Part shown: positions 500 to 19,581 of the stretch, one piece after another
How positions within the stretch are numbered: the stretch's first letter is position 1
Layout: every line of letters begins with the position of its first letter
Assembly (NCBI GenBank): GCA_944377745.1
Contig: CALWFV010000084.1
Location: 1 to 64,000, forward strand
Origin: an uncultured Mediterraneibacter sp.
GTDB taxonomy: Bacteria > Bacillota > Clostridia > Lachnospirales > Lachnospiraceae
Direction of reading: 5' to 3'
DNA: 64,000 nt
The notes under the pieces: generated by a model
What the model saw: the letters and a program-made list of their open reading frames with translations, nothing else
Told to the model about the DNA's origin: nothing
Databases searched by the model: none
Position numbers and translations under genes: made by a program

Positions 500-1546
500 T
501 TATTTGACGGTTACCTTATATTTATTTTGTAAATATTCAATCGACTCTTTTAAAGAACTTTTGATATCCCACCATTCTGTCCAATTTGTATCTTTTTTAC
601 ATTGATTAATACTGTTTTCCTCCATTATATCTGGAATAATTTTTAAAGAGTCCTCATAATTCTTGTATTTTATAAAAATCTTTTTATCTGAACAATTTAA
701 TGCAATTTCAGCAAATTTTCTAATCGAAATATACCTACTATATACATCATATCCGAAACAAATTTTTCCATCTTTTAAAATATGCAAAATGGCTCTAACA
801 AGATCGTACACAAAAATAACAGGTCTTGTACATCCCCCATCTGACGTTAGCAATATATCCTTATTTAAAGATACACTTTTTATTATTTCTGCATATACTC
901 GAATGTCAGTGTCATCACTTGGCCCATATACAAACGCGGGACGAATAATTTTAGAAGGAATACCATATTCCTTATTGTAACACACACACAAATTCTCTGC
1001 ACATCGTTTAGCGATGGTATAACTATTAGATTCGTTTAATATATCAATTCCTTGATACATTCCTTCTTTTATTTTGCCATCAAGGTTTCCATAAACCATA
1101 TAGCTACTTAGATATAAAACACTCTGTACATCTCCAAGTCTAGCAAAGTCAAAAATTGTTTTTACACCAAGAATATTAGCCTCTATTAAACTTGCCGGAT
1201 TATCTTTTATTCTGGATGGATTTGAATCTGCCGCTGCATGTATAATATAATCTACCTTATCTTTAATAGTGATCGGTTCTTTAATATCTTGTTCAATTAT
1301 TTTTATATAAGGACTATTCAGCCAGTTTCCATATAATAAACGAGCTTTTTTTTCATCCCTGCAAAGGAGGATGAGTTGAATTTTATTATCAGCAGTCTCG
1401 TTATACAGAATTATTGACATTACAAGAAATCTAGAAATAAAGCCTGTCGCTCCTGCTATTAATATAGTTCTGCCACTATATTCATTAAATATCGGATCAG
1501 TTGCAACTCTTGCAAGTTCTTCTGATTTATGCATTCTCAACAACAT
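500..1546 (-). CDS. NAD(P)-dependent sugar epimerase/reductase (extended SDR)
   Basis: This is an extended short-chain dehydrogenase of the nucleotide-sugar epimerase type, 348 aa. The N-terminal Rossmann loop is GATGFIS (residues 32-38), with Ser where the third Gly is usual. The catalytic pair is Y-x3-K in SYTIAK (about Tyr176/Lys180), and the Ser of the SSYMVYG stretch matches the active-site Ser/Thr position. The ATG at 1546 was chosen because AGAGGA stands 9 nt upstream. An upstream TTG at 1582 extends the frame but has no better site. It is the last gene of the operon, 40 nt after the transketolase C subunit. By position it may reduce a keto group left after the branching step on the CDP-sugar (inference). 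The substrate is not known. Confidence 0.8.
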   Translation of the reverse strand: MLLRMHKSEELARVATDPIFNEYSGRTILIAGATGFISRFLVMSIILYNETADNKIQLILLCRDEKKARLLYGNWLNSPYIKIIEQDIKEPITIKDKVDYIIHAAADSNPSRIKDNPASLIEANILGVKTIFDFARLGDVQSVLYLSSYMVYGNLDGKIKEGMYQGIDILNESNSYTIAKRCAENLCVCYNKEYGIPSKIIRPAFVYGPSDDTDIRVYAEIIKSVSLNKDILLTSDGGCTRPVIFVYDLVRAILHILKDGKICFGYDVYSRYISIRKFAEIALNCSDKKIFIKYKNYEDSLKIIPDIMEENSINQCKKDTNWTEWWDIKSSLKESIEYLQNKYKVTVK

Positions 1547-1586
1547 AAAATTTGTTCCTCTATATTTGTTAGTATTCACCAAACGT

Positions 1587-2471
1587 TTACTGATCTAGCA
1601 TCTCTTCTAGTTTATCAGATATATTTTTGGAGTTTAACCCATAATAATTCATCTTTTCTTCATATGTCCCATAATTACGAAAGATTTCTTTAGGAAATGA
1701 CACTTGATCTATTATTAATTGTTTGCCTGGTAATGCAGCGTGAATATCATCGAGTAATGTTCCTCTATATTCAGGCTCCACTATAAGTATTTTTCCGGAT
1801 TTACAATTTTCTTGCAACACCGCTTTGTCAAATGGCTCTAATGTTGTGTAATATAAAACAGTAACGTCTTTGTCTTTACATACCCCCATTACAGCATCAA
1901 GCATAACGGATACAGCTATTACCGTTGCTTTTGTACCAGTCTGAATAACTGTCGCTTTTCCAAATTTCACGTCAGGATCATAAAGCATATTAGGGTGATC
2001 ACTTATCCTAAAAAATGTAGTATGACCGTTTCGATAACTTTCATTAAAAAGCTGTTGAAATTGTTTTGGCGTTCCCGGTGCCACAAATTCAACTCCCGGG
2101 ATTTGTTTGATAATTGCCGCATCTTCAGCGCAATAATGCGAATACCCATATTTGGGATAATCCACGGCTGCACCCGTACCAATAACATTTATCCCCTGTT
2201 TTTGATATGCCAAATCCATTTTTATTTGTTCCAAAGTTCTTTCTATTAAATAAGGCTGTATTCCAAAAATAATAGGAACTAGCCCTCTGCTGGCCATTCC
2301 TGCCGCAATAGTCATCATTGCATCTTCAAAAATCCCAACATTCATACATCTTTGTGGATAATCTCTAAGTGTTTCTCTAATGGCCCACATCCCAATGTCC
2401 ACTGTCATAAAGACAGTGTCTGGTTCATTTGGTATTATTTCATTAATTCTTTTTAAGAATGCTTTTCTCAA
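1587..2471 (-). CDS. Transketolase, C-terminal subunit (pyrimidine-binding and C domains)
   Basis: At 294 aa this matches the second half of a transketolase: a pyrimidine-binding domain (about residues 1-165) followed by the transketolase C domain. The text GIFEDAMMTIAAGMASRG carries the Glu that activates the ThDP aminopyrimidine in this family. The start is TTG at 2471, overlapping the stop of the N-terminal subunit (TTGA), with AAGGAGG about 11 nt upstream. The two subunits should form one active enzyme that moves a two-carbon ketol group. Because it lies within a CDP-deoxysugar block, a sugar-branching role is plausible. A simple pentose-phosphate role is less likely but not excluded. Confidence 0.85.
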   Translation of the reverse strand: MRKAFLKRINEIIPNEPDTVFMTVDIGMWAIRETLRDYPQRCMNVGIFEDAMMTIAAGMASRGLVPIIFGIQPYLIERTLEQIKMDLAYQKQGINVIGTGAAVDYPKYGYSHYCAEDAAIIKQIPGVEFVAPGTPKQFQQLFNESYRNGHTTFFRISDHPNMLYDPDVKFGKATVIQTGTKATVIAVSVMLDAVMGVCKDKDVTVLYYTTLEPFDKAVLQENCKSGKILIVEPEYRGTLLDDIHAALPGKQLIIDQVSFPKEIFRNYGTYEEKMNYYGLNSKNISDKLEEMLDQ

Positions 2472-3262
2472 AATTCATCAACCTCCTTACAAAGAATTCT
2501 CAGTTCGTTTAAATCTGGGGATTTATGAAACCAAATGTCATTTTCCATCATTGTTTTACTTCCATATCCACGTATAGTTTGTGCAATAACGGCTTTGGGT
2601 TTTCCGTTACATCTGCATTTTATCTGCATAAAGGTCTCTTTTATCTCATCTATATCATGCCCATTTATAGATTCCACATCAAATCCAAATGATATGAGCT
2701 TCTCTTTCATACTTCCCATATCAACCATCGCACCTACTGAATTATTATCGTCTATAATCACACACAGATTATCTAACTTTTTAGAACTGGCAAAAATACA
2801 TGCCTCCCACATTGTACCTTCGCAAAACTCCCCGTCTCCGCAGAGCACATAAATTTGTGAATTGAGATTTTTGATTTTATTAGCCGCAGCAATCCCAACC
2901 GCAAAAGGCAAACCATGACCGAGTGAACCGGCATTGTTTTCAATACCACCCTCAAATTTGGTCAAATCTGTTTGAATACTATACCTACTATGAAATAATC
3001 CAATTTCAGATATGATTTCATCCATGCTAAACATATTTTTCTCTATAAGGACAGGATATAATGCTAGCGTAGCCTGACCCTTACTGATTATAAAAAAATC
3101 GCGATCATCATCTTTCGCCGTTTCTGGAGTCCATTCCATAATATCGTTATACAATACCCAAACTATATCAAGACATGAAAATACACTTTGAAGATTACCA
3201 TCTTGACATTTATGCGAAAGACGTAGGGCCATTTTTCTTAGTTGTTTTGAAATTTCTTTCAT
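2468..3262 (-). CDS. Transketolase, N-terminal subunit (ThDP-binding)
   Basis: This 264-aa protein holds the diphosphate-binding half of transketolase. The ThDP/Mg motif GDGEFCEG is followed about 25 residues later by DDNN, as in the family GDG...N motif. It overlaps the C-terminal subunit by 4 nt, which suggests translational coupling. Split transketolases are common in Firmicutes and archaea. Here the pair follows the aldolase gene by 8 nt inside a sugar-nucleotide block, so it is probably devoted to surface-sugar synthesis (inference). Confidence 0.87.
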   Translation of the reverse strand: MKEISKQLRKMALRLSHKCQDGNLQSVFSCLDIVWVLYNDIMEWTPETAKDDDRDFFIISKGQATLALYPVLIEKNMFSMDEIISEIGLFHSRYSIQTDLTKFEGGIENNAGSLGHGLPFAVGIAAANKIKNLNSQIYVLCGDGEFCEGTMWEACIFASSKKLDNLCVIIDDNNSVGAMVDMGSMKEKLISFGFDVESINGHDIDEIKETFMQIKCRCNGKPKAVIAQTIRGYGSKTMMENDIWFHKSPDLNELRILCKEVDEF

Positions 3263-3270
3263 AAGTCTCT

Positions 3271-4326
3271 TTAATCCTTTTCTTTATTTTTTTCTAGATA
3301 AGTATTATAATATTTATCTGCTGTATCAGTAGAAAAGATAATTTTATCTTCGTCTGTTAATATAGACATAATTTTATTAATAACAGTTGGATCTAATTTG
3401 AGTTTATCATCATAGTAACCTGCATAATTGGGATTACAATGATGAATAGCTGACAAATAATACGGGAATGAATACCCCCATTTTTGTTCTTGGTATATCG
3501 CTTTAATATATTTTTCATATACAGAAATCATAGGCAAAATATCATAGTTTTTGCCGTATACAGTATTTAAATATTTTGCAAATACTTCAAGATTTAAATT
3601 TCCTGCGCCTCGTCCTATTCCATAAACACTCGCATCTACAATCAACGTACGGTCAATATCCTGACTAATAAAATCAACTGCTGATCCATACGCCTGCATC
3701 ATGTTATTATGCCCATGATAGCCTAATGCAATATGGGAATCCAAATATCTTTCTGCAAGAATTGCATAATGCCTAATTTCATCACTGCATAATGTCCCCC
3801 AACTATCTACAATATAGACTGCCATAGGATTTAGCCGCTGAAATAAGTTTAACATTGTTATAAACTCTTCATCAGTATATTGTTCCACACGAGCTGGCTG
3901 TATACAAAGTTTATAACCTCTCTCCACTATTCCCTTGCAGTATTCAAATCCTTCCTGAAGAGCATCACAAATATTTCCAAATTTATCTCTTTTATTTTTC
4001 CATATAATAACTCTAATAATGTCAATGGTATTGTCCGTCTTCTCTTCAATCAATTCGAGAGGAATGGGATTTACCACTTCAATCATTGCTGCATATTCAA
4101 TATGTGGCTTTTTAGGTTCAATAAGTTGTGTAATCTGACTCATTGAATTAAAAACAGTACGATCGTTATTATAGGGTTGATTTTTTAAAAACCCCAATTC
4201 TATAATATCTGTCCCTGTCTTTTCTAATTGTGTAATCATATCGCAAATTGAATTGTAGCCAAATTTCCAATCATTTATATATCCCCCATCACGAAGAGTG
4301 CAATCCAAAAGTCGTATTTTTTTCAT
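3271..4326 (-). CDS. HMGL-like aldolase (pyruvate carboxyltransferase-type TIM barrel)
   Basis: A 351-aa protein of the HMG-CoA lyase / 4-hydroxy-2-oxovalerate aldolase / isopropylmalate synthase superfamily. The N-terminal LLDCTLRDGGY motif supplies the metal-binding Asp and catalytic Arg. GYHGHNN near the middle provides the His-x-His metal ligands. The family makes or breaks C-C bonds next to a 2-oxo acid. The gene begins 1 nt before the end of the acetolactate-synthase-like gene (4328), so the two are very tightly linked. Likely jobs are to supply a 2-oxo acid donor for the ThDP enzyme or to process its product. The substrate cannot be read from sequence. Confidence 0.8.
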   Translation of the reverse strand: MKKIRLLDCTLRDGGYINDWKFGYNSICDMITQLEKTGTDIIELGFLKNQPYNNDRTVFNSMSQITQLIEPKKPHIEYAAMIEVVNPIPLELIEEKTDNTIDIIRVIIWKNKRDKFGNICDALQEGFEYCKGIVERGYKLCIQPARVEQYTDEEFITMLNLFQRLNPMAVYIVDSWGTLCSDEIRHYAILAERYLDSHIALGYHGHNNMMQAYGSAVDFISQDIDRTLIVDASVYGIGRGAGNLNLEVFAKYLNTVYGKNYDILPMISVYEKYIKAIYQEQKWGYSFPYYLSAIHHCNPNYAGYYDDKLKLDPTVINKIMSILTDEDKIIFSTDTADKYYNTYLEKNKEKD

Positions 4327-4327
4327 T

Positions 4328-6040
4328 CTATAACCTCATTAATTCATTAAATTTGTCTCGTTCTATATACGGTCTTTGATCTTGAATTACCCCATTTCTT
4401 CCAAAATTTGGATTTAATTCTGTTTCAACGGGTACATGTACTTCTATTAGCATCCGACTATTGTCTTCTAATAGTATACCGTTTAATTCTGATATATTGT
4501 CTATTTTTGTGTATGTCAAATCAAATGCTAAAGCAATCTTTTTAAAATCAGGAGCTTTATAACCTTTTCCCTCTATAGTCTGGGAATAGTTCCTATCAAA
4601 ATTGGCTTCCTGAAATCCACGAATCATCCCCAACGCTTCATTATTGATAACTATAACTTTAATCGGAAGCTTCTCTCTTTTAATAAACTGCAACTCTTGG
4701 ACATTCATTTGGAGCCCCCCATCTCCATTAAAGCACACAACAGGTTTTTTGCGACCATAATAAACCCCAATAGCTGCAGGTAAAGAAAACCCCATAGCGC
4801 CATGCCCCGCAGACATATAAACTCTTTGGGATTTTTTTAGATGTAAATTTTGCGCTATCCACACCCCACTTTGTCCTACATCGCTAGTTATAGAATAGTT
4901 GTCAGGAATTTTGTCCCCGATTTTTGTAATCAAATGGTTATATTCTTTTTCATCAAACCCTTGTAATTCATTTTTGAGTACTTTACATACATTATTCCAG
5001 GTAGTATTACATTTAGGCAACATATCAATATGCTGTAGCAGATAAGGGATAAGCTTTTTTACGTCTATTTTTAAGTCTACTTCATCTTGGTGTACCTTGT
5101 ATAAAAGATTCCCAGCGTCAATATCAATTCGTATAATCTGTGCCTGTGGAGCAAAATTCTCCCTGATATTTCCCACTTGTTTCAAATCAAGACGAGATCC
5201 CATTGTAATGATTAAATCACTTTTTCCTAATATAAAATTCCCATAGCGATGTCCATTTGCACCAATAAACCCATAGTTAAATTCGTGGTCATATGCAAGT
5301 ATGTCAAACGCCGGCATAGAAAATACCGCTGGAATACGGAGCGTTTCTACCAAGATTTTAATATTTTCTTCTTGCCCTGATATTTTAATTCCGTTACCAA
5401 TCAATAGGCATGGTCTTTCTGAAGCTTCTAATGCTTCTTTTATGGTATCAAAAGAAGCTTCCAAACTACGGTCCTCTTCCACAGATGATGGACTAAATCC
5501 CTCAAGATCATCAATATCGATGTTAGCTCTTTGTATGTCAGCAGGCAGATCAATAACAACTGGACCTGGGTTTCCTGATGTTGCCAAATAATATGCTTTT
5601 TCCAATTCATATCTTATAGCCTTAAGATCATCTATGCATACTGAATATTTTGTTATCGGCTCCATTATTTTCACAATATCTGTTTCCTGAAAACCTCTTT
5701 GACGAATCGGAATATCCTTTTTCATTGTGTATGTATCTACCTGTCCAGTAAAAAAAAGTACAGGTATAGAGTCAAAATAGGCATTAGCCACACCAGTAAC
5801 CAAATTAGTAGCACCCGGACCACTTGTCGCGAAAGCCACTCCAATATTTGAGGAGCTCATTGCATATCCACAAGCCGCAAAAGCCGCCCCCTGTTCATGA
5901 TATGTGGTATGAACAGCTATACTATTCTGACATTTGGTAGCCGAATCAATTAGATGGCAGATAACCCCACCAGGATATCCAAAAATATCTGTAACATGTT
6001 TATCAATTAAAAATGAGATAATATAGTCCGTCACCTTCAT
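4328..6040 (-). CDS. ThDP-dependent acetolactate synthase-like enzyme (YerE-like candidate)
   Basis: A 570-aa enzyme with the full acetohydroxyacid synthase architecture: pyrimidine-binding domain with catalytic Glu49 (HEQGAAF), a central domain, and a diphosphate domain with GDGG...NN (about residues 435-463). In Yersinia, YerE of this family adds an acetyl unit from pyruvate to C4 of CDP-4-keto-3,6-dideoxyglucose to give the branched sugar yersiniose. Placement 12 nt downstream of rfbH, the maker of that keto sugar, makes the same type of reaction likely (inference). No ilvN-like regulatory subunit is nearby, which argues against branched-chain amino acid synthesis. Confidence 0.8.
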   Translation of the reverse strand: MKVTDYIISFLIDKHVTDIFGYPGGVICHLIDSATKCQNSIAVHTTYHEQGAAFAACGYAMSSSNIGVAFATSGPGATNLVTGVANAYFDSIPVLFFTGQVDTYTMKKDIPIRQRGFQETDIVKIMEPITKYSVCIDDLKAIRYELEKAYYLATSGNPGPVVIDLPADIQRANIDIDDLEGFSPSSVEEDRSLEASFDTIKEALEASERPCLLIGNGIKISGQEENIKILVETLRIPAVFSMPAFDILAYDHEFNYGFIGANGHRYGNFILGKSDLIITMGSRLDLKQVGNIRENFAPQAQIIRIDIDAGNLLYKVHQDEVDLKIDVKKLIPYLLQHIDMLPKCNTTWNNVCKVLKNELQGFDEKEYNHLITKIGDKIPDNYSITSDVGQSGVWIAQNLHLKKSQRVYMSAGHGAMGFSLPAAIGVYYGRKKPVVCFNGDGGLQMNVQELQFIKREKLPIKVIVINNEALGMIRGFQEANFDRNYSQTIEGKGYKAPDFKKIALAFDLTYTKIDNISELNGILLEDNSRMLIEVHVPVETELNPNFGRNGVIQDQRPYIERDKFNELMRL

Positions 6041-6052
6041 TCTAAAGTCTCC

Positions 6053-7399
6053 CTACTTATTTACTGCTTCTATTATTACTTTAGCCATATATTCTATCAT
6101 TGTATCTGTCATTCCCGGATATACCCCAACCCAAAATGTGTTGCTCATAATAAAATCGGTATTTGACAATTTGCCTACCACACGATACGCTGACGGCATA
6201 TCTCTAATTTGTTTAAAACATGGATGTTTGATTAAATTCCCACTAAATAATAGCCTTGTTTGTATATTATGATCTTCGATATTTTTGATAACAATATTAC
6301 GTTCCAAACCACTTTCCGGTTTTATGGATAATAGAAAACCAAACCAAGAAGGAATACTGCCCGGAGCTGGTTCAGGTAATATCAATTTATCAGCAACTGG
6401 TTCTAAAGACTCTCTGAGATATTCCCAGTTGTGCCTTCTACGTTCGATAAATGATGGAAACTTTTTTAACTGCTCACATCCTATTGCTGCCTGCATATCA
6501 GTCACTTTTAGATTATAACCAAAGTGACTGTAGACATATTTATGGTCATATCCTTTTGGGAGTTCCCCATATTGTCCGTCAAACCGATGTCTACAGAAAT
6601 TATCCTGCCCTGAAGGACAGATACAGTCTCGTCCCCAATCACGATAAGATAAAATTAGTCGGTGAAGCAAAGAATTATTTGTATATACGCACCCACCTTC
6701 CCCCATTGTCATATGATGAGGAGGGTAAAAACTGCTAGTCCCGATATCTCCCCAAGTTCCCGTATATCGCGTTTCTCCATTAATGGTATATTTTGATCCT
6801 AACGCATCACAATTATCCTCAATCAGCCATAATCCATATTTATCACAAAATTCTTTTACAGCTTTTAAATCAAACGGATTTCCTAATGTATGTGCAACCA
6901 TGACCGCTTTAGTTTTATCTGACAACGCTTTTTCTAATTGACTAACATCAATATTATATTGTGGAACCGTTACATCTACAAATACAGGGATTGCTCCATA
7001 TTGTATTATAGGAGCAATTGTAGTAGGAAAACCACAAGCTACCGTAATTATTTCATCACCTCTCAATATCTGTCGCTGCCCAAGTTCAGGGGCTGTTAAC
7101 GTCATAAATGCTATTAAATTTGCTGATGAACCACTATTGACCAAATGTGCATATTTCACGCCTATCCAGAAAGCAAATTCTTTTTCAAATTTATCAGAAA
7201 AACGCCCGGTAGTTAACCAGAAATCTAGCGTTGCATCAGTCAGTGCCTGCATCTCTTTTTCATCATAAACTCTAGACGCATAAGTTATTCTGTCTCCCGG
7301 ATTAAAACTCTCTTTTTCTTTTTTAAATTGATGATAGTATTCTGCAACTAGAGATTTTATTTCGTTCCTTGCCTCAATTTCGGTGTTCCATTTAGACAT
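6053..7399 (-). CDS. rfbH: CDP-4-keto-6-deoxy-D-glucose 3-dehydrase (E1, RfbH)
   Basis: A 448-aa member of the DegT/DnrJ/EryC1/StrS fold. The usual PLP-binding Lys is replaced by His in SFYPPHHMTMGEGG, the mark of E1/RfbH and ColD dehydratases. A cysteine set C-x1-C-x7-C (DCICPSGQDNFC) with a further Cys about 61 residues upstream matches the known [2Fe-2S] ligand pattern of E1, with a slightly longer first spacing. It should use PMP to remove the C3 hydroxyl of CDP-4-keto-6-deoxyglucose. GGAGG lies 9 nt before the ATG. The partner reductase E3 (rfbI/ascD) is not in the window. Confidence 0.92.
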   Translation of the reverse strand: MSKWNTEIEARNEIKSLVAEYYHQFKKEKESFNPGDRITYASRVYDEKEMQALTDATLDFWLTTGRFSDKFEKEFAFWIGVKYAHLVNSGSSANLIAFMTLTAPELGQRQILRGDEIITVACGFPTTIAPIIQYGAIPVFVDVTVPQYNIDVSQLEKALSDKTKAVMVAHTLGNPFDLKAVKEFCDKYGLWLIEDNCDALGSKYTINGETRYTGTWGDIGTSSFYPPHHMTMGEGGCVYTNNSLLHRLILSYRDWGRDCICPSGQDNFCRHRFDGQYGELPKGYDHKYVYSHFGYNLKVTDMQAAIGCEQLKKFPSFIERRRHNWEYLRESLEPVADKLILPEPAPGSIPSWFGFLLSIKPESGLERNIVIKNIEDHNIQTRLLFSGNLIKHPCFKQIRDMPSAYRVVGKLSNTDFIMSNTFWVGVYPGMTDTMIEYMAKVIIEAVNK

Positions 7400-7446
7400 G
7401 ACTTGATACCTCCTATAAATGACCTATTAAAATCTATATTTAATAA

Positions 7447-8520
7447 TTACTGTTTTGCCAGAAACTCATCAATTTGCTGTTCCATACACGCTGAAATATT
7501 GCCACCATTTATCCAACATTTTGTCCATTCCACCGTTTTTTCTACAGCCTTGGGCAAATTCCATCGAGGCGCCCAGTTTAAAAAAGATTTAATTTTCGAG
7601 CAGTCTAGTTTTAAATATGTTGCTTCGTGCGGTCCATTATCGCTTTTGTTAATCCATTTTATTTCGTCTCCCCAATAATATATAAAAAGATCAGCCAGAT
7701 CTCCAGTAGAGTAGCAATCTACTTCATCTGGTCCTACATTATAAAAGCCTTGTAAACTTGGATCTTCATACTGTCTACCTGCAATAAGTAAATATGCAAA
7801 GAGTGGTTCTAATACATGTTGATAGGGTCTCGTAGAATAAGGATTTCGTACAATGATATCTTGCTTTTTTATAGCTGCTCTAATACAATCAGGTATTATT
7901 CTGTCAGGTGCAAAATCACCACCGCCTATTACATTTCCGGCTCTAGCTGTTGAAACAGCAATTTGGGGCTTAATTCCATTGTTAAAAAATGAATTCTTAT
8001 AGCTATGTGTAACCAATTCGGAGCATGATTTTGAATTTGAATAAGGATCATATCCATCTAATTCATCATTTTCACGATAGCCATATACCCATTCCTTATT
8101 TAAATATACTTTATCAGTTGTCACATTCAAAACAGATTTTATATTACCATTTACCCTCACGCACTCAAGCAAATTAACTGTTCCCATAACATTTGTTTCA
8201 TATGTGTAGACTGGATTATTGTAACCATCTTTTACAATCGGCTGTGCTGCTAAGTGAAATACAATATCTGCCTTTGAACATTCAAGTGCGTTTTCTAAAT
8301 CTTTTAAATTTCTAATATCTCCATAAATTGAGTTTACTTCATCCTGCACACCCGAAAGCTCAAATAATGAAGGGAAGGTATTATCTATAGGCAACGAATA
8401 CCCTGTAACGATTGCCCCATATTTAGCTAATATCTTGCACAGCCAACTTCCCTTAAAACCTGTATGCCCCGTAACAAATACTTTTTTCCCTTTATAAAAA
8501 GAAAAATCAAAAACTGCCAT
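7447..8520 (-). CDS. rfbG: CDP-glucose 4,6-dehydratase
   Basis: A 357-aa extended SDR. It has a Rossmann motif GHTGFKGSW near residue 18 and a Y-x3-K active site in YDPYSNSKSCSE. The GFKGSW signature and the overall length are typical of RfbG rather than dTDP-glucose dehydratase. It converts CDP-D-glucose to CDP-4-keto-6-deoxy-D-glucose, the substrate of RfbH. It sits 6 nt downstream of rfbF in the canonical rfbF-rfbG-rfbH order, which strengthens the call. Confidence 0.93.
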   Translation of the reverse strand: MAVFDFSFYKGKKVFVTGHTGFKGSWLCKILAKYGAIVTGYSLPIDNTFPSLFELSGVQDEVNSIYGDIRNLKDLENALECSKADIVFHLAAQPIVKDGYNNPVYTYETNVMGTVNLLECVRVNGNIKSVLNVTTDKVYLNKEWVYGYRENDELDGYDPYSNSKSCSELVTHSYKNSFFNNGIKPQIAVSTARAGNVIGGGDFAPDRIIPDCIRAAIKKQDIIVRNPYSTRPYQHVLEPLFAYLLIAGRQYEDPSLQGFYNVGPDEVDCYSTGDLADLFIYYWGDEIKWINKSDNGPHEATYLKLDCSKIKSFLNWAPRWNLPKAVEKTVEWTKCWINGGNISACMEQQIDEFLAKQ

Positions 8521-8526
8521 AATAAA

Positions 8527-9306
8527 CTAATCCTTCCATACTTTCCATGGAGCATTCCCCGACGCCCACATTTTTTCTAAAAGAGTTTTTTCACGCTTTG
8601 TATCCATGCACTGCCAAAACCCTTTATGATTATATGCTTGTAATTCCCCTTCAGCAGCAAGTAATTCCAGCGTCTCTTTTTCCAATACAGTTTTATCATC
8701 TTGAAGATACTTAAAAATTTGAGGTTCTAAAACCATAAATCCAATATTGATACGATTTTCTTCCGAATCCATTTTCTCTTTGAATTTTATTACATTATTA
8801 TTTTTGTCAAGATCCAAAATACCAAAACGCTGATTTAGAATTGCTGATGATAATGTTGCTATTTTTCCCCTCGATTTATGAAATTCTAAAAGTTCTTTCA
8901 AATTAAGGTCACTAACACCGTCCCCATACGTTAGAAAAAAAGGTTCATTGTTAATATAATCCGCTATTCTTTTTATACGACCTCCAGTCATTGTGTCTAA
9001 TCCCGTGTCTACTACAGTAACTTTCCAGGGTTCTGCAGACGCATTATGAACTAACATTTTATTGTTAGCTTCAAAATCAAAGGTTATATCAGATGTATAT
9101 AAATAATAATTAGCAAACCATTCTTTTATGATATGCTGTTTATAACCGGCACAAATAATAAACTCATTAAACCCATAATATGAATATAGTTTCATAATAT
9201 GCCAAATGATAGGCATTCCTCCAATTTCTAACATAGGTTTAGGTCTGTATTCCGATTCCTCTGATATTCTTGTCCCATAGCCCCCCGCCAGTATTACTAC
9301 CTTCAT
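8527..9306 (-). CDS. rfbF: Glucose-1-phosphate cytidylyltransferase
   Basis: A 259-aa nucleotidyltransferase. The N-terminus MKVVILAGGYGTRI holds the nucleotide-binding GG-x-GTR loop, followed by RPKPMLEIGG and a conserved YGDGVSDL Mg-binding stretch. It makes CDP-glucose from CTP and glucose 1-phosphate, the entry to the CDP-3,6-dideoxyhexose route. Its start overlaps the end of the flippase gene by 4 nt (9303-9306), showing operon organisation. Confidence 0.94.
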   Translation of the reverse strand: MKVVILAGGYGTRISEESEYRPKPMLEIGGMPIIWHIMKLYSYYGFNEFIICAGYKQHIIKEWFANYYLYTSDITFDFEANNKMLVHNASAEPWKVTVVDTGLDTMTGGRIKRIADYINNEPFFLTYGDGVSDLNLKELLEFHKSRGKIATLSSAILNQRFGILDLDKNNNVIKFKEKMDSEENRINIGFMVLEPQIFKYLQDDKTVLEKETLELLAAEGELQAYNHKGFWQCMDTKREKTLLEKMWASGNAPWKVWKD

Positions 9307-10625
9307 TTTAATCCTTCTCCTTGTTTAATGATATTATTTACATATATTGTATATATAATATTACCTACGAAAGAAGTGAGTCCAGTTGCCAGACAAACGC
9401 CTGTGGTGCCAAGTCCCCCAATCGTTGCTAAGAAGACTGAAAGAGGAATATTGACAACTGCAGCGCCAACTGCAACTGCTACTTGCAAATTTACTTTACC
9501 CATTCCATTCATAGCTGTAGCGTAAATCATGCTATATATATATGAAAAAACATATAGCCCCATTGTTACAATTAAACCTGATTCATAAACCAAATGCTGT
9601 CCCAACCATAAATCGGAAAGATGTTGAAAGAAAATCACAGTAAACATCATAACAATAAAGATTGGAATCAATAGTATACGCATTTTTCTTATAATACTTC
9701 GCATCCATTTATAATTCTTCATCTCCATTGCAACTGTAAATTTTGACCATAAAGGCGCTACCAAAGCTGAAAAAACTGAACTAAAGGCTAAAAATACTTT
9801 ATTTACTGTGTTATATGGTGTTACTAAATCTGGACCGTATAAGGTTGTTATAATAATATTATCACAAGTAAATAAAATCAAAGCAGCTATTTGTAAAATA
9901 AAAAATTTAATACCTAAGCCACATATAGCTTTCACTTTAGAACCATCAAACAATTTCCAAGAAGGCCTAAAATAATTTGCTTTTTTCCATATTTTTAAAG
10001 AATAATAAATATTGACTAAAAAACTTGATAAACTAAATATTATTGCTACTACTAAGAGTTCACCTGAAAATACATATGAAACGATAAGGATCCCAAGAAG
10101 ATTTAGTAATTGGATTATCATTCCCTGAAAAGTGACAGTTTCCGCTTTTTGATCAGCATAATACTCTGCCTTTTGTAAAGATAAAAAAAGATTTATGCAT
10201 ACAAAAGTGAAGCTGACCAAGACTGCATTCTGACTTTCTATATCAGTATTAAAAATAGTCTTCCAGTTTAACAAAACAGCTAAACTGATAACAATTATTG
10301 TTACGACTGTACATATGTAAAAAAGTATTTTATACGCTGTAGAAACGGAATATTTAGCCTTTAGATACTCTTTTTGAGCAAGCTCACGAGATAGAGAATT
10401 TCGTAAACCATTACCTATTCCAACATCAAAATAATTAATCCAATTTATAATTGATAAAATCGTTGACCAAATTCCATATTTCGTATTTCCAAGCCAAGCA
10501 ATAAGTACCGGTGTATAAATAAAAGAAAAAAACATATTAAGAGGTTTATAGATAGTACTTAAAACCATACTCTTATATAAGTTCTCTTTTTTTATGTAGC
10601 TAAACAAATTTTCTAATAATTTCAT
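9303..10625 (-). CDS. Wzx-type polysaccharide flippase
   Basis: A 440-aa integral membrane protein with about a dozen hydrophobic segments spread over its length, in the polysaccharide transporter/MOP superfamily. The N-terminal GNTKYGIWSTILSIINWINY stretch is typical of O-antigen flippases. It should move undecaprenyl-linked repeat units across the membrane. It overlaps both neighbours by 4 nt (rfbF downstream, a GT2 upstream). It is the only flippase of the left operon; a second one is at 31116-32579. Confidence 0.85.
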   Translation of the reverse strand: MKLLENLFSYIKKENLYKSMVLSTIYKPLNMFFSFIYTPVLIAWLGNTKYGIWSTILSIINWINYFDVGIGNGLRNSLSRELAQKEYLKAKYSVSTAYKILFYICTVVTIIVISLAVLLNWKTIFNTDIESQNAVLVSFTFVCINLFLSLQKAEYYADQKAETVTFQGMIIQLLNLLGILIVSYVFSGELLVVAIIFSLSSFLVNIYYSLKIWKKANYFRPSWKLFDGSKVKAICGLGIKFFILQIAALILFTCDNIIITTLYGPDLVTPYNTVNKVFLAFSSVFSALVAPLWSKFTVAMEMKNYKWMRSIIRKMRILLIPIFIVMMFTVIFFQHLSDLWLGQHLVYESGLIVTMGLYVFSYIYSMIYATAMNGMGKVNLQVAVAVGAAVVNIPLSVFLATIGGLGTTGVCLATGLTSFVGNIIYTIYVNNIIKQGEGLK

Positions 10626-11605
10626 TTGTGTTTACACCCCATATAAATCTCACGTAAAAACATTAGGCATTTGGAAGGAAGGTACGTCGCTGCTATAAGA
10701 GGAAGCCAAAGTATCGGAAACTCTTTAACACCTTGGAAAATATAATGTCTATTTTCAAGTCCAAGTCCTGTTTCTGTAGTTCTGAACGCCAATATTAATT
10801 TCAAAACATCTTTTAACATCGTTTTCTTATATACCCGTTTTAATATTTTTTCTTTTATCCCAGTTTCTTTTCCCAATTGTAAAATTAGTCTTTTATATCC
10901 CTTGACCCATACAGTAAAAAGATTGTAGCCCCCAGTAGTACCACTTCTTGCTGCGATACAAGGCTCCTTAAATGCAATATATGTGCCATCTTCTTTCAGG
11001 CATTCTAATACGGTTTGCGCGGAAGCAATAAATTCTCCTTTATATAAATTACGATTTACCTTTTTGGCTATTGATGTACGGTATATAGACGTTGACAATA
11101 ACGTAATTTGAATATTGACTAATTCGAAAAAATATTCTTTATTTTTAGTTATTATATTTCCAGGAATCTTTAATCTGGGGCTTTTACAGTCTGGTATAGA
11201 CGTGAATTTTTTATAAAAATTTATTGCATTTATATATATATAGTTAGGTTCATTTTCAATAACTTCCATAATCCTTTTTAAACTTCCGGGCAGTAAAATA
11301 TCATCGTCAGAAAGAATATACGTATACTTCCCTTGTGCATATTTGAAGCATCTATCTACGTTTTCCTCAACCCCTACATTTCTTTCGTTACAGAAATACG
11401 TAATATTAGGAAAATTATTTTTCAACATCTCTTTTGTACTATCTGTTGAGGCGTTGTCTGAAATTATAAGTTCGATAGTTTCTGGTTTTGGTATTTTTTG
11501 TATTTCTTTCTCTACGCTTTTTAAACATTCCTTTAAGAAATCACATCTGTTATATGTAGGTATTATAATTGATAATAAAATTGTTCGTGTCACTATACTA
11601 TTCAT
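10622..11605 (-). CDS. Family 2 glycosyltransferase
   Basis: A 327-aa GT-A type transferase. LSIIIPTYNR near the N-terminus, the ISDNASTDST motif and a DDD metal-binding motif (ILSDDDILLPGS) at about residue 100 are all present. The C-terminal third is variable and probably sets acceptor choice. It overlaps the flippase gene by 4 nt. The sugar transferred cannot be inferred. It may be the one that uses the CDP-deoxysugar made by the downstream genes, since it is close to them, but that is a guess. Confidence 0.85.
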   Translation of the reverse strand: MNSIVTRTILLSIIIPTYNRCDFLKECLKSVEKEIQKIPKPETIELIISDNASTDSTKEMLKNNFPNITYFCNERNVGVEENVDRCFKYAQGKYTYILSDDDILLPGSLKRIMEVIENEPNYIYINAINFYKKFTSIPDCKSPRLKIPGNIITKNKEYFFELVNIQITLLSTSIYRTSIAKKVNRNLYKGEFIASAQTVLECLKEDGTYIAFKEPCIAARSGTTGGYNLFTVWVKGYKRLILQLGKETGIKEKILKRVYKKTMLKDVLKLILAFRTTETGLGLENRHYIFQGVKEFPILWLPLIAATYLPSKCLMFLREIYMGCKHK

Positions 11606-11654
11606 CCTTTTTTATTTTTCTAACCAAATAACAGTCTCTCCAATATTTAGCTCA

Positions 11655-13451
11655 CTAATTTATATAAACGCTATCCCTCTCAACAAAAACACACAATAAT
11701 TCAGTTTCAAAAATTATATTGAATTTTTCTTCTAATATTTCAATATTTCCAGAGGCCTTTTTTTCTATCAATATTCCAGTATCGCCTAATATATCATGTG
11801 CATCTAATAAATCACTAATCTCTATAGATTCTATTGTTTTATATGGATAAAAAAATTGAATGCTTTCCATATATTGATTTCCCATAACAAAATATATTTC
11901 AGGCTCTTGTTCTAATGCATTTATATATTCCGTAATAGCTAATGTATTTTCACTCTTCTCAGCTTGATCAACTAATACTGTTCCTTGTAGGGAAATTATT
12001 ATATTCTGCATTAAAAGAATTGCTGTAATCATTACTACCAAGCAAAAGTTAATATTTATCTTTTTCCATTTGACTTTTTGGTTTAATAAAACCATCAATA
12101 TAGTAGACCAAAATATCTTTACTAAAAACATCTTATAAATCAAGTTTTCGGTATAGATTAATTCTCCGTCTGATAAATAAGGGGTTAAACTAAGTACCCC
12201 TAACGGGGCTATAATATTTGTAAAATCATCTCCAGTTTCTATCCACTCTTTCACATAGTTATCTGTGCAAACAGAGAGCAAACAGCAAATAACAATAAAA
12301 AGAAAAAATAGAATATTAGGATTTCGTTTTTTAGCAAGTTCGATAATTCCAAATAATGTTATAACAGCCATCAAAAAGTCTGTATAACGCCCATATATTA
12401 AATGATCTACTCTAAGTGGAACTATCATAGTTAAAGCTGAAACCAGTAACATACTAACAAATCCCAGCCCGACAAATAATACTATCCACTCTTTACTTGT
12501 AATCTCACTCGATTTATGAAACATTTTTTTTAAACAAGAAACAACTGTTCTTATTATAAATAAAACGCCCCAATAAGCCATTCCATAAGAGCTCAAAAAA
12601 ATATACCATAGTCTTCCCAATAAATTCAAAATAAACACTTTAAGACCATTTAATGTAAGCAAGATCCGAATTTTTTCTCCTTGTCCACTATAATCCGTAT
12701 ATCCTAATATCTGACTATTCGCATAATACGTATCAATCAAACCCTTTTTTATTACTGCATACATCCCCCATATTATTACTACAAATATTAAAAAAAACAC
12801 TATTTTTTTTAAAGAGATATTATTTTTTATAAAAAATAATAGAAGTATGATTGTTGCGCTTAATAAAATACCAATCGTTCTTTGATGTACAACATATAAA
12901 TATATTAAGGACAGCCCCATTCCCGCTAACCTTAAAAATGTAATTTTTTCAGTCAATAAAACTAAGCAAAGAATGATGATCCAAAACATTGTGTACAATA
13001 ATGTCTCACTTAAGGTATAATGTGCATAAATAATATTCACCGGAAATATCGTCACAAAAAAGCAAGTTATCACTATAAATAATCGATTTATTTCGGGGAA
13101 AATTTTATTAATAACAAATATAGCTATGAAAAATGAAATTACTAATAACATTCCATTTATAATAACAGCACATTTATATGCAATCAGCGAATTATTTGCT
13201 ATTAATAAAATCGGTAAAAGCAAAAAACTATAGCCAAAAGAATAGTATTGTACTGTGCTCATAAGCTCGGTCCAATCTAAACCAGCAAAATAAGCCGCTG
13301 CTGCCCAGTAACCAAATTCATCATTATAGATTACAAGGCTATCTAGTTTATCTATATCTATTAAAGAAAAAAATAAAATGCTCAAACATAAAATGCTTAT
13401 CATAACAATATTTGTTTGTTTTACTCTCTTTGTTACATTCACTTTTTTCAA
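11655..13451 (-). CDS. Multi-pass membrane protein, candidate GT-C glycosyltransferase
   Basis: A 598-aa very hydrophobic protein with more than ten predicted membrane segments and a short soluble tail (about residues 500-598). After the first membrane segment it has IYNDEFGYWAAAAYFAG, an acidic pair in the first outer loop as in GT-C enzymes that use polyprenyl-phosphate sugars. The same signature is in the protein at 21111-23246. The function may be transfer of a side-branch sugar outside the cell, or polymerisation. No other O-antigen polymerase is seen in the left operon, so a polymerase role is possible. The DNA is strongly AT-rich. Confidence 0.6.
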   Translation of the reverse strand: MKKVNVTKRVKQTNIVMISILCLSILFFSLIDIDKLDSLVIYNDEFGYWAAAAYFAGLDWTELMSTVQYYSFGYSFLLLPILLIANNSLIAYKCAVIINGMLLVISFFIAIFVINKIFPEINRLFIVITCFFVTIFPVNIIYAHYTLSETLLYTMFWIIILCLVLLTEKITFLRLAGMGLSLIYLYVVHQRTIGILLSATIILLLFFIKNNISLKKIVFFLIFVVIIWGMYAVIKKGLIDTYYANSQILGYTDYSGQGEKIRILLTLNGLKVFILNLLGRLWYIFLSSYGMAYWGVLFIIRTVVSCLKKMFHKSSEITSKEWIVLFVGLGFVSMLLVSALTMIVPLRVDHLIYGRYTDFLMAVITLFGIIELAKKRNPNILFFLFIVICCLLSVCTDNYVKEWIETGDDFTNIIAPLGVLSLTPYLSDGELIYTENLIYKMFLVKIFWSTILMVLLNQKVKWKKININFCLVVMITAILLMQNIIISLQGTVLVDQAEKSENTLAITEYINALEQEPEIYFVMGNQYMESIQFFYPYKTIESIEISDLLDAHDILGDTGILIEKKASGNIEILEEKFNIIFETELLCVFVERDSVYIN

Positions 13452-13495
13452 AAAAATCCTCCACCATCTCTAAATTCAAGACATATTCAAAACAA

Positions 13496-14614
13496 TTATT
13501 TCTCCATTATCAAATATTTTTTTACAGCAACTGTATTCTCGTATTTTTCCAAAAATGTTTTCCTTACTGCATCCACATAACCCATATTAGTTCTTTCACG
13601 AAACACAAACCGAATGTTCTTTACATATTCTTCGGATGTATTACATCGATAAATACCATCCACACCTTCAAGCTCATATCCCTCTAACGCCTCATCAGAT
13701 GCAAACATAATTTTTCCATACATCATAGCCTCTGCTGTTTTTATTTTTATTCCATCCCCATATAAAATGGGCATTACCATTGCATAATTGGTGTAATAAT
13801 ACTGTTCAAGATCCTGCACTGTACCTATCACTTTCACATTTTTCTTTTGCAATTCAAGAGATTTTTTTTCAAATCCTTTTCCCACTATTAATAAAGTATA
13901 GTCTTCTAATTCACTCATTACATTCTCGATGAACCATTTTATCCCATCATAGTTAGGAGGAAAATTTGAGCCAATAAATAAAAGTATTTTTTCCTTTTTT
14001 ATTTTAACTCTTATGTGTTTTTCTTCCGAGAATCTATCTTTAAAAGTCATGGGTATGATAGCCGAGACATTACGATTATATAATTTTTTTACCAGTTTAC
14101 TATCTCTATCTGTAAGACAAATAATTTTATCAGCATATTTCAATGTCATATTTTCATTTAGTTTTACAAAAAAAAAGGGAAGTAATAAAAATGGGTTTTG
14201 CTTCTTCACTTTATTCCAAACATAATATTTTTCGATATTTTCAACAAAAATTTGTGTTTCTATATTTAATGAATTCAATTTTTTAACAAGCGGCCCAAAT
14301 AAAGATCGTTCTAAAAATACAATATCAAAATTTTCTTGTTTAACATAATCAATAAGTTTTTTTTCTTGCTTAGCTGAAGAAAAGGCGTGAAGTGTAAATA
14401 CATCACAAATTTTAGCCAATAAAGATGTATGAGATTTTTCGCGGCGAATAAATTTATCTGAATCTTTGAAATCATTAGTAAAAATATATGCATACGCATT
14501 TTTTTTTCCGTAAACATCTTGTAACATAGTGAAATTACGATAAGAACATTTTTTTCCACCATCTGTTTGATCCAAAATAAATTCTTGTCCACATACAAAA
14601 AGTACTTTTTTCAT
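13496..14614 (-). CDS. Family 4-like glycosyltransferase
   Basis: A 372-aa GT-B type transferase. The C-terminal half has the GT4 pattern: LLFIGSNFPPNYDG, then LLIVGKG, then a PILYGDGIKIKTAEAMMYG stretch with the nucleotide-sugar-binding acidic/Gly region. This PxxxGxGxKxK variant is typical of surface-polysaccharide GT4 enzymes. It is the first gene after the IS110 remnant and has a 44-nt gap to the membrane protein. The donor sugar is unknown. Confidence 0.8.
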   Translation of the reverse strand: MKKVLFVCGQEFILDQTDGGKKCSYRNFTMLQDVYGKKNAYAYIFTNDFKDSDKFIRREKSHTSLLAKICDVFTLHAFSSAKQEKKLIDYVKQENFDIVFLERSLFGPLVKKLNSLNIETQIFVENIEKYYVWNKVKKQNPFLLLPFFFVKLNENMTLKYADKIICLTDRDSKLVKKLYNRNVSAIIPMTFKDRFSEEKHIRVKIKKEKILLFIGSNFPPNYDGIKWFIENVMSELEDYTLLIVGKGFEKKSLELQKKNVKVIGTVQDLEQYYYTNYAMVMPILYGDGIKIKTAEAMMYGKIMFASDEALEGYELEGVDGIYRCNTSEEYVKNIRFVFRERTNMGYVDAVRKTFLEKYENTVAVKKYLIMEK

Positions 14615-14774
14615 AATTTTTTCCTTGTATGATGTTTATAGAAACTTAAACACCACACTTCCTTTCTTTTTAATCTGGTATCGTGGTTCAATACATTCAG
14701 ATACTGTGGACTTTTGATTTGTTCTCTGTAGCCTTGGCTACTCTATAAGAGTGTGTTGCCGCTGCCTTTATCTG

Positions 14775-15123
14775 AATTGTTTATGTGCTGGATGTTGCCT
14801 GGGGTATTGTCCTTGGCGAGATCGGTGATATTCACCGATTTTCCACCCCAATAAGCTGCCGGCGTTTGCCGGTCTGGATTCATCTGTATACCAGTCCGAA
14901 AATTTTCAGGTCAAGCGGACATGGTTGTCAAAACACAGTTCCCGTCTTCTCCGATATACACTGACAAACACAGCTCACAATGTAGTCCACCTTTAAAGCT
15001 TACTATGATAAGAAGATTGCAGAGAACTGGACTCACTACAATGCGCTTGGGCATTCCATTGGCAAACTTGTCAGAGTCATGTGGAAGTTGCTGACTGGCG
15101 AAGTGGAATTTTGCCTAGATTAA
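14775..15123 (+). pseudogene. IS110-family transposase, C-terminal remnant (frameshifted)
   Basis: Reading across at least two frame changes gives the IS110 C-terminal domain in order: LGEIGDIHRF, then KLPAFAGLDSSVYQS, then SRLLRYTLTNTAHNVV, then YYDKKIAENWTHYNALGHS and a closing KLVRVMWKLLTGEVEF before TAA at 15121-15123. The LxEIGDI, FAGLDP-like and ALGHxxxKLVRV motifs are family hallmarks. The N-terminal DEDD catalytic domain is missing, so it cannot be active. It lies where base composition changes inside the polysaccharide operon and probably marks a past insertion or recombination joint. Confidence 0.85.
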
Positions 15124-15338
15124 GATGTCTGTATACCAATATCAATAGATTTTTTAAGCTCCCTAAACGAACTCTATTCAACTTCCCCTTTTTTACCGTA
15201 GATGCCCAAAAGAAATATTTTGCTAATTTATACTTGACTTTTCATAGCTGGTGTCCAACTAACTTTTATTTAAGTGATTAGCGCTCGACCTTTATCTCAG
15301 AGAAATAAGGAGAATCTAAAAACTAAAAATTCAGAAGA
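15124..15338. other. Non-coding gap between IS remnant and rmd
   Basis: AT-rich sequence with no gene. A weak inverted repeat (CCTTTAT...ATAAGG, near 15289-15310) follows the end of rmd on the minus strand. It is not a convincing terminator, so read-through into the left half of the operon remains possible. A short plus-strand frame starting at 15081 only borrows the IS remnant and is not a gene. Confidence 0.4.
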
Positions 15339-16283
15339 TCAATAATCCGTTTCCTCTCTCCAATAATTCAGTGTTTCTTCTATCGTTCTTTCAATTGCTA
15401 TCTCTGGACTCCATCCCGTACATTCCTGCAGCTTGCGAATATCCGCCTCTATAATCGGGACATCTATCGGACGAAATCTTTTTTCTTCCACTTCTACACG
15501 GATTGTTCCTGGGGAGATAGAAATAATTTTTTTTAATATTTCTTCTATGGAAACTGCCTTTCCACTGCCAACATTATATGTTTCACCCCTGTTCCCGCTC
15601 TCCATTAACAACGCATACGCCCTTACAACATCCCTTACGTCAGTAAAATCTCTCTTTGCCTTCAAATTTCCAACTCTGATAACAGACAATGACTGATCTC
15701 GTTCAAGTGTCGCAACCTGTTTACAGAAATCCGATACAACAAACTGCTCACTCTGCCCTGGTCCGATATGATTAAAGGCCCGGACCATAATGATATCCAT
15801 GCCGTATGCATCAGTATAAATTTTCCCAAGCATATTCTGGCTTGCCTTCGTTGCCGCATAAATATTCCCGGGACGAAGGAGGGTTTCTTCATCAATGGGA
15901 ACTTCTTCTGGCAATACACGACCATATTCTTCTCCTGACCCTACCAATAATATCCGTGGGAAATATGTCAACTTTCGTATAGAATTCAGGATATTCAGAG
16001 TGCCTTTTATATTGATGTCTACAGTAAGTCCCGGATTTTTCCAGGACTGAGCTACTGAACTCTGTGCAGCCAAATGATAAATTGCATCTGGTTGAATATG
16101 ATTTAACAGCGAAAAGACTTTTTCAGCGTCCAAAATGTCAAGGTCATATACTCCATATTCTTCAGTTTTGATTTTTTCATGGGGTAGCTTAGTCACAAAC
16201 ACCTGGTCTCCATTCGTTTTTAAATGTTCTGCCAGATATCTTCCAACAAATCCACAGCCTCCTATAATAAGCGCTTTTTTCAT
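15339..16283 (-). CDS. rmd: GDP-6-deoxy-D-lyxo-4-hexulose reductase (Rmd-like)
   Basis: A 314-aa extended SDR. It has the GGCGFVGRYL Rossmann motif at residues 8-17 and a Y-x3-K site in IYAATKASQN. The RAFNHIGPGQ substrate-loop motif is typical of the Rmd/Tld group. It reduces GDP-4-keto-6-deoxy-mannose. Since gmd is 15 nt upstream, the product is most likely GDP-D-rhamnose. A GDP-6-deoxy-talose product is the main alternative. A fucose synthase is less likely because GFS proteins differ in the substrate loop. Confidence 0.8.
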   Translation of the reverse strand: MKKALIIGGCGFVGRYLAEHLKTNGDQVFVTKLPHEKIKTEEYGVYDLDILDAEKVFSLLNHIQPDAIYHLAAQSSVAQSWKNPGLTVDINIKGTLNILNSIRKLTYFPRILLVGSGEEYGRVLPEEVPIDEETLLRPGNIYAATKASQNMLGKIYTDAYGMDIIMVRAFNHIGPGQSEQFVVSDFCKQVATLERDQSLSVIRVGNLKAKRDFTDVRDVVRAYALLMESGNRGETYNVGSGKAVSIEEILKKIISISPGTIRVEVEEKRFRPIDVPIIEADIRKLQECTGWSPEIAIERTIEETLNYWREETDY

Positions 16284-16298
16284 GGATCCAACTCCTCG

Positions 16299-17324: not shown

Positions 17325-17361
17325 TTGTAACTGTCTCCTTTAAACAAAAAATTCTATATGC

Positions 17362-18489: not shown

Positions 18490-18586
18490 TTTTCTATTTC
18501 GCGGCAGAGCAGTAATACAATGTCGCTAAGACAAATGGACGTTTGTCCAACAAACTGCCTAACCGCTTTTCTCCTCTTTCGTCTTA

Positions 18587-19564: not shown

Positions 19565-19581
19565 CTTACTGTACCTCTCTT

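Follow-up and report, generated by a model that had tools for sequence, protein, structure and literature searches.

Two thiamine diphosphate (ThDP) enzymes, ErwE (erwiniose) and MMAR_2332 (caryophyllose), favor 2-oxo acids that are hydroxylated and longer than pyruvate, according to the part of PMC12247030 covered here. The branch of caryophyllose is a 1,3,4,5-tetrahydroxyhexyl group (passages covered of PMC5706390), as expected of a pyruvate aldol product. Caryophyllose-like higher branched sugars are known as structures; how their long branches arise is, in the literature covered, largely a matter of inference. Here we describe an eight-gene operon that probably makes a sugar of this kind. 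It occupies positions 500 to 9306 of a 64,000-nucleotide stretch of DNA (the window) from an uncultured Mediterraneibacter sp. of the Lachnospiraceae (assembly GCA_944377745.1, contig CALWFV010000084.1), and joins rfbF, rfbG and rfbH to genes for a ThDP enzyme, an aldolase, a split transketolase and a short-chain dehydrogenase/reductase (SDR). An initial annotation of this DNA took only the YerE-type step, acetyl addition at C4 for yersiniose, to be well known; ErwE and MMAR_2332 correct that statement. The same annotation allowed for a larger branch derived from a 2-oxo acid, and this is now the most likely product, given these precedents and the ties of the enzymes to rfbFGH. We put at about 60% the probability that the product of the operon is a CDP-activated 3,6-dideoxyhexose bearing a long carbon chain at C4, similar to caryophyllose or erwiniose, for a surface polysaccharide, a reading drawn from sequence and from analogy.

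The tight operon initially described is real: all eight reading frames are on the minus strand, with intergenic gaps of -4 to 47 bases, and their domains and families are as named. The first three genes are rfbF (8527-9306; glucose-1-phosphate cytidylyltransferase, 259 aa), rfbG (7447-8520; CDP-glucose 4,6-dehydratase, 357 aa) and rfbH (6053-7399; 3-dehydrase E1, 448 aa). Each exceeds its NCBIfam equivalog cut-off, with 378.7 bits against 300 (TIGR02623), 433.6 against 278 (TIGR02622) and 714 against 423 (PRK15407), respectively. RfbH has His at the position of the pyridoxal phosphate (PLP) lysine (YPPHHMTMGEGG). Its cysteines 197, 259, 261 and 269 are spaced as C-X61-C-X1-C-X7-C; the E1 iron-sulfur motif we take to be C-X57-C-X1-C-X7-C. 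The X61 spacing is shared by 13 of 15 related rows, and X57 is found in the other two and not in the window. Pfam domains are clear in the ThDP enzyme, the aldolase and both halves of the transketolase, and none of these proteins passed any NCBIfam cut-off shown; by sequence they appear to be homologues of housekeeping enzymes and not those enzymes themselves.

The same gene set recurs elsewhere. L139, a locus from a different family of the same taxonomic order, has seven of these eight genes with their arrangement unchanged, at 57-79% identity (rfbF 66%, rfbG 61%, rfbH 79%, ThDP enzyme 62%, aldolase 57%, transketolase N half 72% and C half 73%), which argues that the set is no accident. L139 differs in having a Nudix gene between rfbG and rfbH, an SDR of the classical instead of the extended type, and a fusion of the aldolase to a glycosyltransferase. 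This locus was found by searching 392 genomes of the order for the transketolase, and it lies outside the best 80 aldolase loci, which were obtained by aligning four short-form aldolases (A2) and scanning genome contigs; at least 578 candidates were confirmed and the best 80 kept, in 79 of which the aldolase frame was annotated (L055 was dropped). Among these 79 loci, rfbH is present in 14, and all 14 have a ThDP or transketolase enzyme (within three genes in 12), as against 13 of the 65 without rfbH (Fisher p 1.6e-8). A KdsB-like gene lies within three genes of the aldolase in 29 of the 79. ThDP or transketolase enzymes accompany none of these 29 and 27 of the 50 others (p 1.8e-7; the count leaves aside a DXS-like gene that L107, one of the 29, has on the opposite strand), and rfbH likewise is in none of the 29 and in 14 of the 50 (p 0.0014). 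These p values overstate independence: the loci are related to one another, several of the contigs are short, and the genes were labeled with BLAST and small profiles. When loci with a ThDP or transketolase enzyme near the aldolase, or with rfbH, were marked on an aldolase tree of 87 rows built by a quick method, 10 changes of the label sufficed; shuffled labels required 26 on average, and none of 500 shuffles was as low as 10; this context is therefore clustered, yet of more than one origin. Together with the gene order of L139, the counts for rfbH bear out the initial grouping of the C-C bond-forming enzymes with rfbFGH.

The ThDP enzyme (4328-6040; 570 aa; Pfam TPP_enzyme N, M and C) is a carboligase of IlvB/YerE type that retains the Glu of HEQG and the GDG...NN motif. 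The gene that follows it encodes the aldolase, not a small subunit. It scores below cut-off in all NCBIfam families shown (25 of 54), including TIGR00118 (400 bits, cut-off 538). Among solved structures the closest is 5ahk, which we take to be PpYerE, and acetolactate synthase I (AHAS I; 6lpi) comes next. In two trees the enzyme falls outside the IlvB/IlvG/IlvI clade, which holds the two separate IlvB-like copies of its own genome (L116, L117). It clusters instead with the enzymes of L026, L027, L062 and L063, and in the second tree also L139, each beside the aldolase (support 92/94 and 94/93). The group takes in L085 as well in the larger tree, and in L085 four genes separate the ThDP enzyme from the aldolase. 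With groups defined after the first tree was seen, forcing the window and L139 together with the IlvB set was rejected (p-AU 0.0056); constraining the window set to group with 5ahk was not (p-AU 0.18), and the free tree has 5ahk with IlvB at 88/89. Thus, of the phylogeny proposed as a check, separation from IlvB was upheld, and on kinship with YerE the tree is not decisive; the enzyme can be called YerE-like by context, as it stands beside rfbF-rfbG-rfbH in the window and L139. A second ThDP lineage of about 600 residues is paired with the aldolase in many loci. A plasmid search with the ThDP enzyme gave 74 records; among the 30 listed, the annotated ones are ilvB, ilvG or ilvI, and the top match, an Aeromonas record, groups with IlvG in the tree.

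Two other loci with a ThDP enzyme carry a 3-dehydroquinate (DHQ)-synthase-like gene. In L108 it is beside the ThDP enzyme. L030 (1-17000) has rfbF, rfbH, rfbG, a ThDP enzyme and a long aldolase, and in addition to the DHQ-synthase-like gene an FGGY kinase, a glyoxalase-like protein, a HAD protein and a radical SAM/SPASM protein; its product perhaps bears a carbocyclic branch.

The aldolase (3271-4326; 351 aa; Pfam HMGL-like) belongs to the HMGL/DRE-TIM type and resembles 4-hydroxy-2-oxovalerate aldolases. Its profile matches are 3dxi and the solved enzymes of that activity, and it is below cut-off in all 10 NCBIfam families shown. It carries the motifs DCTLRDGG, GYHGHNN and GRGAGNL, and the metal motif (Asp and HxH) is present. 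It is uncommon: a cut-off of E 1e-30 gives matches in six genomes out of 398 for the phylum and in 32 out of 150 for the family (each count takes in the own genome), most of them to a longer form. This long form, of about 530 aa, is found in several phyla beside a KdsB-like CMP-sugar synthetase, often with a HAD phosphatase (L061, L069, L074, L083 and others of the 29 loci, and L032 on a Leisingera plasmid). Such loci may make an ulosonic acid by way of a pyruvate aldolase, without the need for a KdsA-type synthase. A HAD phosphatase is within three genes of the aldolase in 11 of the 17 loci listed with the KdsB-like label there. A KdsB-like gene with a HAD phosphatase is the usual arrangement for ulosonic acids, which implies a 2-oxo-3-deoxy acid as the aldolase product. 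In L041 (5966-11017) and L042 (7095-11014), rfbF and rfbG are followed by dehydrogenases of unrelated families (Ldh_2 and the D-2-hydroxyacid type) and the aldolase, with no rfbH detected. The nearness of the aldolase to two unrelated 2-hydroxyacid dehydrogenases also implies a 2-oxo acid product. Such a product is probable for both the KdsB-like and the ThDP/transketolase groups of loci. A single protein of 1,054 or 1,066 residues combines the aldolase with a family 2 glycosyltransferase in L037 (10007-13171) and L139 (6466-9666).

The transketolase is split into an N half (2468-3262; 264 aa; Pfam Transketolase_N) and a C half (1587-2471; 294 aa, TTG start; Pfam Transket_pyr), both below cut-off in all NCBIfam families shown (13 and 7). 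With the pairs of L035, L037, L038 and L129 it forms a clade, TKb (support 100/100). Neither of the two pairs of its own genome falls in this clade, nor do 6yak/6yaj, L062 or the second pair (TKa) of L035-L038. The alignment indicates that the active site is remodeled. In the window, the N half retains GDGE and N, with SGH changed to GN, SKGH to SKGQ and GHPD to QTD, and the C half retains the catalytic Glu and one His, with TH changed to TG, GEDG to PKYG and GRS to SDH. All five TKb rows have the SGH His replaced by Asn, the SKGH His by Gln, the GHP His by Gln or Thr, and the GRS Arg by Asp, and they retain the GDG...N ThDP motif, the catalytic Glu and one His; the last of the N-half histidines is ambiguous because of a one-residue alignment shift. 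The transketolase of L139 also carries the TKb motifs. The own-genome copies (L119, L120) and 6yak/6yaj retain all four canonical residues, and L062 has Leu for the GHP His and Lys for the phosphate-site Arg. A further C-half His, Gly in TKb, is not diagnostic, since it is replaced also in L119 (Ser), L062 (Gly) and TKa (Asp). We take the changed positions to be the substrate histidines and the phosphate-site Arg that bind ketose phosphates in ordinary transketolases. On that assumption, their loss weakens another suggestion of the initial annotation, a two-carbon ketol branch. Tree, cut-offs and residues together rule out a housekeeping origin of the ThDP enzyme and the transketolase; these are not the amino acid or pentose phosphate enzymes that the initial annotation had allowed they might prove to be.

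TKb is rare. It was found in two of 397 genomes of the family (E 1e-70) and one of 398 of the phylum (E 1e-65), the own genome being one of the two and the only one, respectively. Three of the 392 genomes of the order match, again including the own genome, and one of the three, G1098, was rejected as TKb: it is an ordinary transketolase with the canonical histidines, and no aldolase was found in 19.9 kb around the match. Four other listed genomes of the genus are without TKb in the order-wide search, which indicates that the locus is accessory. In total there are seven TKb loci: the window, L031, L035, L037, L038, L129 and L139, identity (63-84% for its pieces) being the sole ground for counting L031. 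The short-type aldolase is in the same gene run as TKb in all seven (with glycosyltransferase genes between them in L031 and L038), and six have rfb genes, the exception being L129. In these six, the gene after rfbH is the ThDP enzyme in two and TKa in four. That the short-type aldolase and TKb make up a mobile two-enzyme cassette for branching CDP and GDP sugars, with TKb a new class of sugar-branching ligase, is rather unlikely.

The L031 locus is on a Desulfobaculum plasmid (NZ_CP090010.1) where the region is present twice (L031 and L121), in opposite orientations, with the same aldolase protein accession and several genes fragmented; decay, duplication or unpolished sequence may account for this. 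Elsewhere on that plasmid the ThDP enzyme had no matches, a zero that is uninformative by itself.

By analogy with branching of the erwiniose and caryophyllose type, the operon might work as follows. RfbF, RfbG and RfbH would produce a CDP-4-keto sugar. The aldolase would condense pyruvate with an aldehyde to a 4-hydroxy-2-oxo acid, as its family and its alternative gene partners suggest. From the examples of ErwE and MMAR_2332, the ThDP enzyme would decarboxylate this acid and put the acyl group on the C4 ketone. The newly formed ketone may then be reduced by the extended SDR (500-1582; 360 aa, TTG start; Pfam Epimerase; motifs GATGFIS, SSYMVYG and YTIAK), presumably an NAD(P)H reductase or epimerase. 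TKb would make or lengthen the aldehyde used by the aldolase; this is the weakest step, and we propose it tentatively, as somewhat under an even chance. The pairing of two separate ThDP lineages with this aldolase family supports the pathway. The role of aldehyde supplier fits L062 (Campylobacteraceae; rfbF-rfbG-aldolase-ThDP-TKN-TKC-SDR, without rfbH; TKN and TKC are the transketolase halves) and L063 (Spirochaetia; rfbFGH, a 554-aa gene, aldolase, ThDP enzyme, DXS-like gene and SDR), where a transketolase or DXS-like gene follows the ThDP enzyme in otherwise like operons.

Several observations weigh against this pathway. The aldolase and TKb of L129 belong to a GDP-colitose-like operon, and no further ThDP enzyme was seen in the 19.9 kb covered there; in L031, L035, L037 and L038 the second transketolase pair occupies the place of the ThDP enzyme; the ThDP enzyme is therefore not a universal partner of the aldolase. 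L041 and L042 combine rfbFG, a 2-hydroxyacid dehydrogenase and the aldolase, and a ThDP enzyme was not detected in about 21 kb. In DmpG the His after RDG is catalytic, and the aldolase family has Tyr at that position (Tyr16, six of six alignment rows). DdhD/RfbI, a reductase of about 330 aa that works with RfbH, was not found among the operon genes or the Fer2 matches in the genome (four, in frames of 585, 155, 901 and 232 aa). As to the CDP-4-keto-3,6-dideoxyglucose proposed by the initial annotation, the rfbFGH families stand, and the deoxy intermediate hangs on RfbH with this partner not found. The ThDP trees were built from sequences other than ErwE, MMAR_2332 and YpYerE. Finally, MMAR_2332 is not shown to act on a ketone in the part covered of PMC12247030.

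An unlikely alternative is that TKb itself couples the aldolase product to the keto sugar and that the IlvB-like ThDP enzyme, or elsewhere the second transketolase pair, builds the donor. All seven TKb loci have the short-type aldolase in the same run (glycosyltransferase-fused in L037 and L139), and TKb has lost the canonical ketose phosphate residues and kept its ThDP site. A coupling role also fits L129 (1-19901), in which aldolase, TKb and an Fe-type alcohol dehydrogenase are inserted in a colitose-like GDP pathway (gmd, colD-like, Fcl-like and manC-like genes), so that a GDP-4-keto-sugar pathway is present and no other ThDP enzyme is found in the 19.9-kb stretch. However, the colitose-type set (gmd, colD-like, Fcl-like) could complete its sugar alone, and the ThDP enzyme adjoins the aldolase without TKb in L027, L062 and L063, as also in L026, whose contig ends after the ThDP gene.

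Lower still is the probability that the aldolase adds pyruvate directly to the C4 ketone of the CDP sugar, leaving the ThDP enzyme and transketolase to modify the branch. The branch of shewanellose would suggest direct addition of pyruvate, and in L041 and L042, where neither rfbH nor a ThDP enzyme was detected, rfbF-rfbG stand with the unrelated 2-hydroxyacid dehydrogenases and the aldolase. Yet the 2-oxo acid of these two loci could be used free of the sugar, and all 14 rfbH loci hold a ThDP or transketolase enzyme. The precedent of ErwE, in the part covered of PMC12247030, places a ThDP enzyme at the ketone.

It is very improbable that the sugar is of the yersiniose type, in which the ThDP enzyme would add acetyl only, from pyruvate, and the aldolase and transketolase would make a separate decoration of the polysaccharide. 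The closest solved relative, 5ahk (presumably PpYerE), and the p-AU of 0.18 for its clade with the window set would agree with such a product, but the aldolase gene is flanked by the ThDP gene, 1 base away, and the transketolase genes, 8 bases away, and the aldolase pairs with two ThDP lineages elsewhere. That an ordinary acetolactate synthase, transketolase and leucine-type enzyme stand near rfbFGH by chance, as their domain names might suggest, is negligibly probable, as no shown NCBIfam cut-off was passed, the IlvB clade was rejected (p-AU 0.006), the order is kept in L139, and the own genome has separate IlvB-like (L116, L117) and transketolase (L119, L120) copies.

Upstream of rfbF the gene run continues with a polysaccharide flippase-like gene (9303-10625, minus strand; Pfam Polysacc_synt; 4-base overlap with rfbF) and glycosyltransferases, beginning with one of family 2 (10622-11605, minus strand; Pfam Glycos_transf_2). 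Further on, two GDP-mannose 4,6-dehydratase family members (15339-17324) probably serve another sugar of the same polysaccharide. The operon has 34% G+C and 9307-20889 has 36%, as against 49% at 26166-50264, which suggests that the block was acquired. Base 1 of the window is the first base of the contig, and a 25-base direct repeat (53-77 and 256-280), perhaps part of an insertion element, is near this end; the chromosome beyond the SDR gene is thus out of view.

Compact and conserved, the operon allows donor synthesis, coupling and reduction to be assayed enzyme by enzyme. For the family of 3dxi, a solved protein named only "putative aldolase", the kind of product becomes predictable from gene neighbors. 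ThDP enzymes that form tertiary alcohols are wanted as biocatalysts (PMC12247030, in the part covered). Searches of the open-access literature gave nothing relevant on the gene combination; key papers of the field are outside that scope, and we do not claim that it is undescribed. The words aldolase and transketolase are absent from the passages on the Mycobacterium marinum caryophyllose cluster covered in PMC4703794, PMC5706390, PMC12507525, PMC13354803, PMC12395582 and PMC4403928.

Compared with known systems, the locus is most like the YerE-like clusters for yersiniose, erwiniose and caryophyllose (PMC12247030, in the part covered), with which it shares genes for CDP-4-keto-3,6-dideoxyglucose and an IlvB-like ThDP enzyme. 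It may differ, above all from the erwiniose and caryophyllose clusters, in adding a dedicated HMGL-type aldolase and a remodeled split transketolase. In miharamycin and amipurimycin a split transketolase is likewise proposed to branch a keto sugar, but the pathway is to an antibiotic, the proposed transfer is of hydroxyacetyl, and an aldolase is not mentioned in the part covered (PMC12247030). The aldolase shares the DRE-TIM barrel profile, the Arg-Asp pair and the HxH motif with DmpG (1nvm) and 3dxi. It differs from DmpG in having Tyr at the catalytic His position, in its polysaccharide context and in the absence of an acetaldehyde dehydrogenase gene from the operon. The split-gene transketolase of Carboxydothermus (6yak/6yaj) has the same two chains and domains, the ThDP motif and the catalytic Glu; unlike it, TKb stands in a clade of its own (100/100) and has exchanged His for Asn, His for Gln, His for Gln or Thr, and Arg for Asp.

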